Source: a virus. Taken from it: a stretch of DNA of 32,038 bases. The stretch covers positions 1-32,038 of IMG/VR virus record IMGVR_UViG_3300047362_000045; one strand, 5' to 3'. Under the pieces are notes generated by a model that saw only the letters and a list, made by a program, of their open reading frames with translations, had not been told where the DNA came from and searched no databases. Made by a program: the position numbers and the translations under genes. This document shows, one piece after another, positions 12,449-24,680 of the stretch (positions are counted from its first letter, which is position 1; every line of letters starts with the position of its first letter).

Positions 12449-13099
12449 ATGAAAATAACAAATGAAGATAATATAGAGTTAATGGCAAGGTATGAGGATA
12501 ATCATTTTGACTTGGCTATTGTTGACCCTCCTTATGGTAGTGATAATATCGTTGGAGGTTATACATCTGGAAAGGGGGGTGGAATATCAAAACAAAAAAA
12601 ATATAACAATGCTTTATGGAAACAATGTGCACCAGAAATAGAATATTTTTCAGAATTAAAGAGAGTTTCTAAAAATCAAATTATTTGGGGTGCAAATCAT
12701 TTTATTTCTAAAATTCCTTTTGATAGTAGTTGCTGGATTGTTTGGGATAAATTAAATGGTAATAATAGTTTCGCAGATTGTGAATTAGCATATACAAGTT
12801 TTGAAACAGCAGTTAGGAAATATAATTTTAAATGGCAAGGTATGATTCAGGGAGATATGAAAAACAAAGAAATACGCATTCATCCAACACAAAAACCAGT
12901 TAAACTATATGAATGGCTATTAATGAATTATGCTAAAGAGGGAGATAAAATATTAGACACACATCTTGGCTCTGGCTCAATAGCAATTGCTTGTCATAAC
13001 TTAAAATATGACTTGACTGCTTGTGAATTAGACAAAGAGTATTACGAAGCAGCAATGAAAAGAATAGAACAACACAAACAACAAATAAGAATGTTTTAA
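12449..13099 (+). CDS. DNA N-methyltransferase (DPPY type), 216 aa
   Basis: The protein has a clear DPPY catalytic motif (residues 26-29 in DLAIVDPPYGSDN), used to methylate the exocyclic amine of adenine (N6) or cytosine (N4). An AdoMet-binding motif lies near the C-terminus (about 170-176, DTHLGSGSIAIA), followed by an acidic residue in CELDKEYYEAA. The order DPPY first, then FxGxG-like motif, is that of beta-class enzymes. There is no cognate restriction enzyme, so it is an orphan MTase. The recognition site cannot be read from sequence. It may protect phage DNA against host restriction or act with the ParB and dioxygenase genes downstream. Confidence 0.9.
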   Translation: MKITNEDNIELMARYEDNHFDLAIVDPPYGSDNIVGGYTSGKGGGISKQKKYNNALWKQCAPEIEYFSELKRVSKNQIIWGANHFISKIPFDSSCWIVWDKLNGNNSFADCELAYTSFETAVRKYNFKWQGMIQGDMKNKEIRIHPTQKPVKLYEWLLMNYAKEGDKILDTHLGSGSIAIACHNLKYDLTACELDKEYYEAAMKRIEQHKQQIRMF

Positions 13100-14822: not shown

Positions 14823-15059
14823 ATGCCTAAAACAAAAAAAATAAACATACCGCAAACAGACCAACATAGAAAGGCAATGCAATGGTGCATAAATAACAAT
14901 ATTACTGTTGGCGTTTTACCTACAAAAAAAGGTTTGAAAGTTGAAATTAACGAAAATGGCGACAAAAAAGTATCGCCAAAAATATACACACAAGAGGAAG
15001 CACAAAAAAAAGTTATAGAATTATATTTGTATATTTACAAAAAATACTGGCAAGTATGA
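14823..15059 (+). CDS. Hypothetical protein, 78 aa
   Basis: I chose ATG 14823 (MPKTKKINIPQTDQHRKAMQ), directly after the primase-helicase stop at 14821, rather than the internal ATG at 14802, which would overlap it by 20 bases. The peptide contains a small alpha/beta-like segment (CINNNITVGVLPTKKGLKVE) and a C-terminal helix with many Tyr and Lys residues. It shares the replication operon and overlaps the next gene start by four bases (ATGA). Function unknown. Confidence 0.7.
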   Translation: MPKTKKINIPQTDQHRKAMQWCINNNITVGVLPTKKGLKVEINENGDKKVSPKIYTQEEAQKKVIELYLYIYKKYWQV

Positions 15060-15256: not shown

Positions 15257-15826
15257 ATGAAACAAAAAGTGAATATTGCGTCGGTTAAAGAAAATCCGGA
15301 CAATCCTAGATTTATAAAAGATTCCAAATTTAAAAAATTAGTAAAGTCAATTAAGGCGTTTCCTGAGATGTTAGAGAAACGGCCAATAGTAGTTGATGAA
15401 AATATGATTGTTCTTGGCGGAAATATGCGTTTAAAGGCGTGTAAGTCGGCCGGGTTGTTTGAGGTTTGGATTGATATTGCCGAGGGGTGGACAGAAGAAC
15501 AAAAAAGAGAATTTATTGTTAAAGACAATGTAGGTTTTGGGGAGTGGGATTGGGATATACTAGCAAATGAGTGGAATACTGAACAATTAGCAGACTGGGG
15601 CCTTGACGTTTGGCAGCCAGAGGAAGATGTTGATTACTCCATTTTAGATGATGAAGATTTTTCATCTGATTTAGAGGATATGAAAAACGGCGTTAAAAAA
15701 GCAATACAGATACCTTTTGAATTAGAGCATTATGAGGAAGCGTTTGAGTTAGTCAAATACTGGAGAGAGCAAGGTGCTTACGTTGGTATGATGTTGATAG
15801 AAAAACTAAAACAAGAAAAAAAATAA
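15257..15826 (+). CDS. ParB/sulfiredoxin-like domain protein, 189 aa
   Basis: The N-terminal domain has the ParB-like pattern: KENPDNPRFI (about 11-20), KRPIVVDE (41-48) and the nucleotide/DNA-contact motif LGGNMRLKA (about 53-61). In ParB this domain binds nucleotide and DNA; relatives occur in nucleases and next to or fused with methyltransferases. A Trp-rich, acidic middle (GFGEWDWDILANEWNTEQLADWG) and a C-terminal helical part (ELEHYEEAFELVKYWREQG) follow. It is placed two bases before the dioxygenase gene, so the two are likely co-expressed. A role directing modification or packaging is inferred. Confidence 0.85.
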   Translation: MKQKVNIASVKENPDNPRFIKDSKFKKLVKSIKAFPEMLEKRPIVVDENMIVLGGNMRLKACKSAGLFEVWIDIAEGWTEEQKREFIVKDNVGFGEWDWDILANEWNTEQLADWGLDVWQPEEDVDYSILDDEDFSSDLEDMKNGVKKAIQIPFELEHYEEAFELVKYWREQGAYVGMMLIEKLKQEKK

Positions 15827-15827
15827 A

Positions 15828-16610
15828 ATGAAAAAACTACAATTATCAAAAATAGAGCATAATACAAAAATAGGAGATATTTGCGGACATATAAATCCAA
15901 ATATTACAGAGGATGTTGTTTTTTATGATGGAGACGAGGCGATTGGTTTTTACATCAAAGATATATCAAAACATTCTGAAAAAGCGTCAAAATTAGCAGC
16001 TTTAGCTAATCAAGAGTTAAGAAGTAAGAATGTTCCTAAAAGTGTAATGAAAAGATCTAGCGGTTTTGCTGATTCCGACAAAGAAGTGTTACAGTATAGC
16101 ACAATTATAGGAAGTGTTCCTCCAAAACCACATATGCGTAGGCCCTACCCCACTATTAGTAGTGTTCACAATGTTAAAACTGCGCAAACTTTCATTAAAG
16201 CTATGCTTATGTTATGTAACGAAAGTGAAAAATTGATACAAAAAATTATTCCAAATGTTTACAAAAATCAAAAAGAATTAATTGAGCAAAATGTTCCTAA
16301 ACAATGGAGGTTTGGAAAATTGTTTACTAGTAGCATATCAAACTACAATATCCCGGCACCATTCCATAGAGATAATGGAAATATAAAAGGATGTGTGAAT
16401 GTAATAATAGCAAAAAAAAATAATGCAACCGGAGGCAATACAACTGTTCCGGATTACGATGCTACTATGGACAGTTGCGATAATTCTATGTTAGTTTATC
16501 CGGCTTGGCGAAATGTCCACGGAGTTACGCCAATAGTTCCAACTGCTAAAGACGGCTACAGAAATAGTTTAGTTTTTTACCCATTAAAAGCATTTAAAGG
16601 CTTAGATTAA
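15828..16610 (+). CDS. 2OG-Fe(II) dioxygenase, TET/JBP-like, 260 aa
   Basis: This is a non-haem iron oxygenase by its motif set: H180-R-D182 (PAPFHRDNGN), H231 in AWRNVHGVTP and R245 in GYRNSLVFYPL, the double-stranded beta-helix Fe and 2-oxoglutarate sites. The distances (about 49 residues from D182 to H231 and 14 to R245) fit this fold. The layout and its place beside a ParB gene recall the phage TET/JBP-like group, which oxidise methylated or normal pyrimidines in DNA (known for the group in general). Here the substrate is unknown; the phage encodes no recognisable C5-methyltransferase. A DPPY-type MTase gene lies 2.7 kb upstream. Confidence 0.8.
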   Translation: MKKLQLSKIEHNTKIGDICGHINPNITEDVVFYDGDEAIGFYIKDISKHSEKASKLAALANQELRSKNVPKSVMKRSSGFADSDKEVLQYSTIIGSVPPKPHMRRPYPTISSVHNVKTAQTFIKAMLMLCNESEKLIQKIIPNVYKNQKELIEQNVPKQWRFGKLFTSSISNYNIPAPFHRDNGNIKGCVNVIIAKKNNATGGNTTVPDYDATMDSCDNSMLVYPAWRNVHGVTPIVPTAKDGYRNSLVFYPLKAFKGLD

Positions 16611-16691: not shown

Positions 16692-16982
16692 ATGTTACAA
16701 AACAAAAATTTTACTAGAAATCAATTAATTAGTTTAGCGGCCTTAATTAACTTCTCTAATGAACACAACTTAGATTTAGATGATGTTATGGAAATTAGCT
16801 ATAATTCTAACTCTGGATATGTTTATATTGCTTTTGAGGATGGTATTACTATTGCAATATTTGAAGGTAGATCTAATTTTGACCAAATTAATTTTTATAG
16901 CTATGATAATCAGTTGGAGGAGGAGGTAGAATATGATACAATTCAAGATTGTATCGAAGATGTTAGATTATGTGAATTATAA
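16692..16982 (+). CDS. Acidic hypothetical protein, 96 aa
   Basis: I chose ATG 16692 (MLQNKNFTRNQLISLAALIN); an upstream TTG in the same frame (16659) lies in the promoter box. The product has an N-terminal helix, an Asp/Glu-rich segment (NLDLDDVMEISYNSNSGYVY), a small beta section and a strongly acidic end (EEEVEYDTIQDCIEDVRLCE). It has its own promoter and follows the dioxygenase gene. Strong acidity suggests a DNA-mimic or scaffolding-like protein, but nothing proves this. Function unknown. Confidence 0.65.
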   Translation: MLQNKNFTRNQLISLAALINFSNEHNLDLDDVMEISYNSNSGYVYIAFEDGITIAIFEGRSNFDQINFYSYDNQLEEEVEYDTIQDCIEDVRLCEL

Positions 16983-17126: not shown

Positions 17127-17501
17127 ATGGCAACAAAAACCGACATATTAAAAAGGAATCTTTTAGAAGCGTTAGAAAAATCGTTAGGAGTAGTTACAAC
17201 GGCGTGTAAAATAGTTGATTGCAATAGAAGTACATTCTATAAGTATTACAACAATGACCAAGACTTTAAATCGTCCGTTGATGAACTACAAAACCTAACT
17301 TTAGATTTTGCTGAATCACAATTGCATCAACAAATAAAAGATGGAAACACAACTGCAACAATATTCTATTTAAAAACCAAAGGCAAAAAGCGTGGTTATG
17401 TAGAACGTAAAGAGGTAGAGATGACCGCAGAGGTTAGTACAAGTAAACTATCAAACGAAGCAAAAAAGAAAATAGACGACATTCTAAACGATGAATATTA
17501 A
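17127..17501 (+). CDS. Terminase small subunit, 124 aa
   Basis: The small terminase recognises phage DNA and loads the large subunit for packaging. The N-terminal HTH-like region (LGVVTTACKIVDCNRSTFYK) is followed by YYNNDQDFKSSVDELQNLTL and GNTTATIFYLKTKGKKRGYV, a segment typical of small terminases of this group; the C-terminal tail is acidic and helical. It overlaps the large subunit gene by 11 bases, as is common. It is preceded by a terminator and by a promoter-like box. Confidence 0.88.
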   Translation: MATKTDILKRNLLEALEKSLGVVTTACKIVDCNRSTFYKYYNNDQDFKSSVDELQNLTLDFAESQLHQQIKDGNTTATIFYLKTKGKKRGYVERKEVEMTAEVSTSKLSNEAKKKIDDILNDEY

Positions 17502-18846
17502 CGAAATAATTAAACAAAAATGTGAAGATTCGCTTTTGTTTTTTACTCGTTATATTTTCAAAGAGAATACCGGAAATAAATTCGAGGCAGCAGAGTTTCA
17601 TAGAACATTAGCCAACACATTACACAAAGTACATAACGGCGAAATAAAGCGCCTTATAATTAATATACCTCCACGATACGGAAAAACTGAGTTAGCCGTT
17701 AAAATGTATATCGCCTGGACACTAGCAAAAAACCCAAAAGCAAAATTTATTCATTTATCTTATTCCGATTCGTTGGCGCTAGATAATAGTTCAATGACAA
17801 AAGAATATATTAATTCAGACGCCTACCAAAGAATTTGGAATCTCCAACTAAAAAAAGATTCACAATCACAAAAGAAATGGTACACAACCGAGGGCGGTGG
17901 GGTTTATGCAACATCCTCCGGGGGTGCAATTACCGGGTTTGGTGCCGGTACCGGTGGAGCAATTATAATTGATGATCCTTTAAAACCTGATGACGCATTA
18001 TCAGACGTTAGGCGGTCGTTTATAAACAATCGATACAATACAACTATTCGGTCAAGGGTTAATGATAGAAATGTTCCTATTATTGTTATTATGCAAAGGT
18101 TACACGAAGATGATTTGAGTGGCTATTTATTAGATGGCGGAAGTGGGGAGCAATGGCATCATTTAAAGTTGGCGGCATTAGATGACGATAATAATGCGTT
18201 ATGGCCTGAGAAACATTCTTTTGAGGAACTCGAAGCAATACGCCAAGCGGACAGATATACTTTTAGCGGTCAGTATTTACAAATCCCTTCGCCTCCAGAG
18301 GGTGGAGAGTGGCGCAAAGATTGGTTTAATGTTATACACAGAGCAGAGTTACCGAGCGATATATCTTTTGAAATGTATATTGATGGCGCTTATACTAAAG
18401 ACACAAGAAACGACCCTACCGGAATACAAATCAGCGGTAAAAGTGGCGACAATCTTTACATATTTAAAAGCATTGACAAGTACCTAGAAATGCCTGAACT
18501 AAAAAACTTTGTCACTTCTTTTGTGCAATCGTGTGGCGTTCCAATATCACAAATATTAGTCGAGCCTAAAGCATCCGGAAAATCGCTTGTGCAGCTATTA
18601 AGGCGTGAAACTAGATACAATGTATCAGAAATAAAAACAAACTTTGTTAGGTACTCTAAAATCGAACGAGCGAGAGCATCTTCGCCATTTATTGAAGGCG
18701 GTAGAGTTTTTCTAGTTAAAGATAATTGGAATGATGCGTTTTTACAACAAGTAAGCACGTTTCCAAACGCTAAACACGATGAGCATATTGACGTAACTTC
18801 CTACGCTATTGAAAGGAATTTAATTAACAACTTTTTTGTAGTTTAA
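17491..18846 (+). CDS. Terminase large subunit, 451 aa
   Basis: This is the DNA-packaging motor. The ATPase part has Walker A at residues about 60-67 (PPRYGKTE, in RLIINIPPRYGKTEL) and Walker B at about 156-163 (GAIIIDDP), with a coupling-type region after it. The C-terminal nuclease part begins with the strand EMYIDGAYTKDTRNDPTGIQ (Asp in IDGAY) and has later acidic positions in QILVEPKAS and DEHIDVTSYAIE. The length of 451 aa is normal for a compact large terminase. No intron, intein or frameshift is seen. The portal gene follows 51 bases later. Confidence 0.94.
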   Translation: MNINEIIKQKCEDSLLFFTRYIFKENTGNKFEAAEFHRTLANTLHKVHNGEIKRLIINIPPRYGKTELAVKMYIAWTLAKNPKAKFIHLSYSDSLALDNSSMTKEYINSDAYQRIWNLQLKKDSQSQKKWYTTEGGGVYATSSGGAITGFGAGTGGAIIIDDPLKPDDALSDVRRSFINNRYNTTIRSRVNDRNVPIIVIMQRLHEDDLSGYLLDGGSGEQWHHLKLAALDDDNNALWPEKHSFEELEAIRQADRYTFSGQYLQIPSPPEGGEWRKDWFNVIHRAELPSDISFEMYIDGAYTKDTRNDPTGIQISGKSGDNLYIFKSIDKYLEMPELKNFVTSFVQSCGVPISQILVEPKASGKSLVQLLRRETRYNVSEIKTNFVRYSKIERARASSPFIEGGRVFLVKDNWNDAFLQQVSTFPNAKHDEHIDVTSYAIERNLINNFFVV

Positions 18847-24320: not shown

Positions 24321-24680
24321 ATGGATAGCAGTCAAATTGGATGTTTAGCTGAATATAAGTTTGCAACTACCGCAATGGAAAACGGCTTTTATGTTTCTTT
24401 TCCTTTATTACATACTTCAAGGTATGACTGCATCATTGAAACGCCTAAAGGATTGTTTAAAGTACAAATTAAATCAGTTCACAATCATAAAAACAGAACA
24501 AGAGTTTTTTTAAGAGATACAAAGAAAAACTCTTACAGTAAAAAAGACGTAGATTTTTTTGCTATTTATTACAGAGACAAAGACGGATTCTTTATTTTAA
24601 AAAATGACGGCAAACGAAAATCATTTGAATTAACATCGCCTAAATATTTAAAATATTTTAATAACTTTGCAGAACTTTAA
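24321..24680 (+). CDS. Free-standing PD-(D/E)XK endonuclease, I-Ssp6803I-like, 119 aa
   Basis: I chose ATG 24321 (MDSSQIGCLAEYKFATTAME), as an upstream GTG at 24288 overlaps the terminator. The motif set is E11, D36 (TSRYDCIIETPKG) and Q49-I-K51 (FKVQIKSVHN), a Q-x-K variant of PD-(D/E)XK. The variant is characteristic of the homing endonuclease I-Ssp6803I group. A gene between its own terminator and promoter, flanked by terminators and inserted in the head operon, fits a free-standing homing endonuclease or moron. A DNA repair or resolvase role is also possible. No intron is visible nearby. Confidence 0.75.
   Translation: MDSSQIGCLAEYKFATTAMENGFYVSFPLLHTSRYDCIIETPKGLFKVQIKSVHNHKNRTRVFLRDTKKNSYSKKDVDFFAIYYRDKDGFFILKNDGKRKSFELTSPKYLKYFNNFAEL

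Follow-up and report, generated by a model that had tools for sequence, protein, structure and literature searches.

A ParB–TET/JBP gene pair beside phage terminase genes as a candidate empty-slot form of a modular DNA-hypermodification cassette

Which base is oxidised by a TET/JBP-like dioxygenase encoded directly after a ParB-like gene, and do two such genes make up a modification pathway by themselves? The question arises from a viral record of 32,038 bases, called the window below. An earlier note had proposed that the pair could be a minimal, not yet described pathway; a better reading, in our view, is a modular hypermodification cassette whose slot is empty. The nearest primase-helicases to that of the window belong to Tenacibaculum, Cellulophaga and Flavobacterium phages, with a few unassigned phages among them, which makes a flavobacterial host likely. 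The features that bear on the question are as follows.

12449–13099, plus strand: N6/N4 DNA methyltransferase of DPPY type, not tied to the ParB-TET unit
14823–14845: site at which near-identical siblings carry an extra C5-methyltransferase; empty in the window and in the sibling L005
15257–15826, plus strand: orphan ParB-like protein, 189 aa, with a ParB nucleotide-binding N-domain at about residues 3–95
15827: empty slot of 1 base; in relatives this gap holds FkbM, TAGT or ADDT/kinase/amidotransferase genes
15828–16610, plus strand: predicted TET/JBP-family 2OG-Fe(II) DNA base dioxygenase, 260 aa, with metal ligands H180, D182 and H231 and 2OG ligand R245
16695–16982, plus strand: small ORF between TET and terminase, present in some relatives
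17127–17501, plus strand: terminase small subunit (TerS; phrog_309, phrog_4044)
17491–18846, plus strand: terminase large subunit (TerL)

The TET/JBP enzyme and its ParB-like partner

The two reading frames and the residues H180, D182, H231 and R245 lie where the earlier note had placed them, and its assignment of the 260-aa product to the nucleic-acid dioxygenases is borne out. The Tet_JBP profile (PF12851) scores 35.8 bits, narrowly above its curated cut-off of 34.9, and a confident AlphaFold model (pLDDT 94) has TET2 as its top PDB match (E 1.2e-10, TM 0.70 by query length). Plain sequence search of the PDB with the protein gave no match, profiles or fold being required; when the phage-TET profile is compared with TET2, the catalytic HRD and the C-terminal His and Arg align. 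The four residues do not vary across a 46-sequence alignment, and the metal triad and 2OG Arg are kept even in actinophage and pelagiphage homologues at 22–27% identity. Patterns derived from the protein found no relative in bacterial genomes. Judged by profile, modelled fold and conserved residues, the protein is a nucleic-acid TET/JBP dioxygenase, consisting essentially of one catalytic domain, for which oxidation of 5-methylcytosine (5mC) or thymine is predicted.

In the ParB-like protein the nucleotide-binding domain is followed by a conserved C-terminal helical tail. The ParB Pfam profile is weak and covers the N-domain alone (18.7 bits against a cut-off of 26.3); PHROG ParB families and solved ParB structures match the protein clearly, and ParB-CTPase structures are the fold match of its N-domain. 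N16 and R18 of Box I and G55 and R58 of Box II (GxxR) show no variation in the relatives' alignment. These elements are shared with canonical chromosomal and plasmid ParB, whereas a profile search for the helix-turn-helix (parS-binding) domain found none in the protein, and TIGR00180 gave 14.4 bits where 58.45 are required of a canonical ParB. On these profile and fold matches, it is an orphan ParB fold of the predicted NTP-binding kind. A 2025 survey describes such folds as common among phages and frequently fused in them with DNA methyltransferase domains, and reports that assayed examples can bind CTP, ATP or GTP (PMC12704722). We looked for ParB-TET fusions and found none. The earlier suggestion that the ParB domain might direct the enzyme to DNA is not supported by the nucleotide-binding fold, the only one found; given the survey and the missing helix-turn-helix, it is possible that this protein recruits TET to DNA.

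An exchangeable slot between ParB and TET

A survey of ParB-dioxygenase neighbours, proposed with the original reading, shows ParB to be the constant partner of TET and the genes between them to be variable. Viral contigs were scanned with four TET queries plus one taken from another branch, and 205 distinct TET loci were obtained; IMG/VR records may be fragments, so an absence carries full weight only in a complete genome. Wherever an upstream ParB could be sought, at 183 distinct loci, ParB comes before TET. Of the remaining 22, all but two are on contigs that break off within 1.5 kb upstream; the two exceptions are distant actinophages in which a ParB gene is annotated though missed by the ParB profile.

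The gap between the two genes is most often filled by an FkbM-type methyltransferase (86 loci), followed by the TET-associated glycosyltransferase TAGT (PF20691; 43 loci). In thirteen loci an amino acid:DNA transferase (ADDT) or a protein resembling it is joined by a P-loop kinase and, in most cases, a class II amidotransferase; three loci hold a GT-B-like protein (so labelled from sequence reading, Pfam giving no match), and two a kinase alone; the content of two loci is unassigned, and 34, the window included, have nothing in the gap. The well-supported branches of a FastTree phylogeny of TET are by themselves enough to require at least 23 changes for FkbM, 17 for TAGT, 12 for empty and 6 for ADDT. 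By gene order and phylogeny, then, the ParB-TET gap is an exchangeable slot and the window presents its empty state.

Within the window, one base separates the ParB stop from the TET ATG, and the pair lies just 5′ of the terminase genes, so that ParB upstream, TET and terminase downstream follow the layout of the relatives. There, TerL lies downstream of TET in at least 124 of 142 cases, at a median distance of 339 bases, and TET adjoins more than one terminase family. Promoter-like sites are at chance level and terminator-like sites number 2 against 0.9 expected. No profile match to any main cargo class of the slot was obtained in the window: PF20691 is absent, in agreement with the earlier report of no glycosyltransferase, and neither ADDT nor the slot kinase, both of which occur in relatives, gave a match.

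The claim that such a pathway had not been described holds in part. Phage operons of ParB, TET/JBP, pyrophosphorylase and adenylate kinase were predicted by Iyer 2013, as relayed by a citing paper (PMC9302106). Like the window, these operons (Gordonia CaiB/CloverMinnie, Rhodococcus Tonitrus) are described in a base-modification context with ParB upstream of TET/JBP and terminase after; they differ in having tailoring genes after TET, of which the window has none, and their TETs are only about 24–27% identical to that of the window. The order in CloverMinnie and Tonitrus is ParB-TET-ADDT-like-kinase-terminase. The two-gene form itself occurs in mycobacteriophage Nigel (gp1-gp2, with TerS and TerL directly after) and in Microbacterium phage Matzah, at about 24% TET identity, in actinobacterial hosts and with a product often named queuine tRNA-ribosyltransferase. 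Closer in sequence are Prochlorococcus phages MED4-184 and MED4-117 (ParB-X-TET-small ORF-TerL), whose TET is 51% identical to the window's but whose slot, unlike the window's, is filled by an FkbM-type methyltransferase. What we regard as new is that the slot is exchangeable, that it can stand empty, that FkbM is a frequent cargo, and that TET appears to take the place of a hydroxymethylase, as discussed below.

Several relatives carry further points of detail. Pelagibacter phage HTVC112P (L347, 3054–5276) has a ParB-TET-FkbM trio in which TET is annotated as a DnaJ/SNF2 DNA repair protein. In L211 (4127–5923) a 598-aa slot protein with a nucleotidyltransferase-like N-terminus and a possible kinase-like part stands beside TAGT; from its sequence, it may supply an activated sugar. 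Between its TET and terminase genes, Microbacterium phage MO526 (L348, 5541–6332) has a gene with the annotation D-amino acid dehydrogenase, possibly a further tailoring enzyme.

Thymine or 5-methylcytosine

The earlier note had left the substrate between thymine, an unusual base and a base supplied by a host methylase. Thymine now appears likelier, with 5mC as a live rival. Seven records have ADDT beside TET and neither a member of the thymidylate synthase/dUMP hydroxymethylase family PF00303 nor a C5-methyltransferase of PF00145 (L069, L071, L074, L190, L214, Tonitrus and CloverMinnie); two are complete genomes, and L071 and L074 are close relatives, so that independent cases number fewer than seven. 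The controls PhiW-14 and Vi01, which the literature reports to carry hypermodified thymine, are the mirror image, with ADDT and PF00303 present and TET absent. PF00303 is absent from the window and 31 other records, while the controls were positive. The complementary pattern suggests that TET replaces the hydroxymethylase and that 5-hydroxymethyluracil (5hmU) is made in the DNA. The window TET is 69–78% identical to several TETs that adjoin ADDT, and it probably makes 5hmU from thymine in DNA.

In thymidine hypermodification of the Lee 2018 type, that of PhiW-14 and Vi01, a dUMP hydroxymethylase reportedly makes 5hmU before replication. The 5hmU-based logic is alike and the ADDT family is common to relatives of the ParB-TET unit, but the ADDT-bearing TET relatives have TET in place of the hydroxymethylase, and the window has no match to PF00303, ADDT or 5hmdU kinase. 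Kinetoplastid JBP, of the base J pathway, offers a parallel for thymine hydroxylation in DNA by this family; by comparison, the window protein has 260 aa and essentially a catalytic domain only, and no glycosyltransferase accompanies it.

The main alternative has TET converting 5mC to 5hmC, along the lines of the Burke 2021 pathway, with the 5mC made by a C5-methyltransferase of the phage or of its host. It owes this rank to the siblings and to gene distribution. PF00145 was not found by profile in the window, as the earlier note had held, but this does not extend to six near-identical siblings (L003, L004, L006–L009), which carry a C5-methyltransferase gene between primase-helicase and ParB, 365–372 aa where complete and about 1.0–2.3 kb upstream of TET. 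The flanks of this insertion are 93–97% identical to the window in most siblings; L005 is collinear with the window and has no such gene. Across records, a C5-methyltransferase is found in 8 of 22 with an empty slot and 6 of 67 with a filled one (Fisher p 0.005, inflated by relatedness), and one small ADDT record, L280, also has one. The nearest folds are mostly 5mC dioxygenases, and in other phages there is an established C5-methyltransferase-TET-glycosyltransferase pathway in which TET is active in cytosine hypermodification (Burke 2021, as cited in PMC12730594). That pathway likewise uses a TET dioxygenase on phage DNA, while the window has neither of its other two genes and the siblings do have the methyltransferase.

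Against a 5mC substrate, C5-methyltransferase is absent from the window, from L005 and from most relatives (15 of 93 tabulated records have one), and from the larger ADDT-bearing relatives. The TET protein is practically unchanged with or without the gene, being 99.6–100% identical to the window's in the six siblings that carry it. In addition, a His of TET2 and NgTET1 eight residues past the 2OG Arg, which we take to contact cytosine, is Leu in almost all these phages; it corresponds to base-facing Leu253 in the window TET, whose bearing on substrate choice is suggestive only. On balance we consider a 5mC substrate unlikely, though far from negligible.

A proposed role for the pair

With moderate confidence, we favour reading the pair as a modular phage DNA-hypermodification cassette whose slot is empty, the full order being ParB-[tailoring enzymes]-TET-TerS-TerL and thymine the most likely substrate. 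The proposal builds on what is established: the enzyme family and its catalytic residues, the selection on the genes, ParB as constant partner, a slot with exchangeable content, and adjacency to the terminase. TET, with Fe(II), O2 and 2-oxoglutarate, would add a hydroxyl to the 5-methyl group of a pyrimidine that is part of the phage DNA, thymine being the likeliest, with 5hmU as the product; ParB may be a clamp or switch, driven by NTP, that serves TET on DNA. Where a tailoring enzyme is absent the product would remain a bare 5-hydroxymethyl base, which would impede restriction enzymes or tag the phage DNA ahead of packaging; in relatives, the slot enzymes would decorate the oxidised base further. 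Thymine as substrate, the bare product, the role of ParB and the benefit to the phage are what we infer. The nearly identical TET of six siblings with a C5-methyltransferase just upstream weighs against this account; ADDT could accept a different substrate in these phages, a host methylase might be the source of the substrate, and NTP binding and DNA contact by ParB are predictions. The window unit is real and functional, the minimal core of a system of a known kind that very probably oxidises the phage's own DNA bases, thymine the most likely among them.

A bolder version, which we hold to be rather improbable as a whole, is that a complete post-replicative thymine hydroxylase consists of nothing but the two proteins ParB and TET: an NTP-driven ParB clamp would spread TET on new DNA near the packaging machinery, and the slot would allow the decoration (methyl, sugar or amino acid) to be swapped and the core left unchanged. 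If TET does make 5hmU directly in DNA, a DNA-level route would replace the nucleotide-level route of dUMP hydroxymethylase, and phages would exchange decoration by a one-gene swap. FkbM-slot systems predict an O-methylated hydroxymethyl base, and we know of none in phage DNA. Because nothing but the ParB-TET core is present in the empty-slot form, two proteins, and cultured phages such as Nigel, would suffice to address what the enzyme acts on and what ParB does.

A main role in DNA packaging or late DNA metabolism, with ParB-TET marking DNA for terminase instead of countering restriction, would fit the frequent position of TerL downstream of TET, next to different terminase families, and the same gene order in actinophages. 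We judge it distinctly improbable: the argument is one of gene adjacency, the terminase of pelagiphage HTVC112P lies about 2.5 kb downstream, and a decoration that can be swapped between sugar, methyl and amino acid is more what one would expect of an arms race.

Selection speaks to whether the empty-slot enzyme is a non-functional, decayed remnant of a longer pathway, as the empty slot and the failure to find a tailoring gene elsewhere in the contig might suggest. Compared with L005, which has no C5-methyltransferase, the TET gene differs at 55 codons, all synonymously; compared with L008, which has one, there are 54 synonymous changes and one nonsynonymous. With ParB preceding TET in every locus that could be assessed, this confirms the conserved two-gene unit of the earlier note: both genes are real, adjacent and under strong purifying selection. 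Since codon changes in TET are nearly all silent, the enzyme, as judged from these comparisons, is maintained and not decaying. The catalytic residues are all retained and the empty state recurs many times on the TET tree, so that decay is largely refuted already and very improbable. That the protein is instead a protein or small-molecule hydroxylase, the finding named beforehand as counting against the original reading, or a queuine tRNA-ribosyltransferase, as PHROG 6059 and RefSeq product names have it, is refuted at the family level and practically excluded, since Tet_JBP exceeds its cut-off and TET2, CcTET, NgTET1 and CMD1 take up the first 26 places among the PDB fold matches, with FTO and AlkB after them.

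The queuine tRNA-ribosyltransferase name, which we reject because TET-family PDB matches come first, is a widespread misnomer for TET/JBP proteins (PHROG 6059, NC_011044 gp2, NC_020847). Elsewhere in the window, the DPPY-type N-methyltransferase of the earlier note is real; it varies among siblings, with a 71% allele in L003 and L007 and no gene detected in L008, which suggests a second exchange site. A PD-(D/E)XK endonuclease (PF11645) is encoded at 24324–24677, amid head genes.
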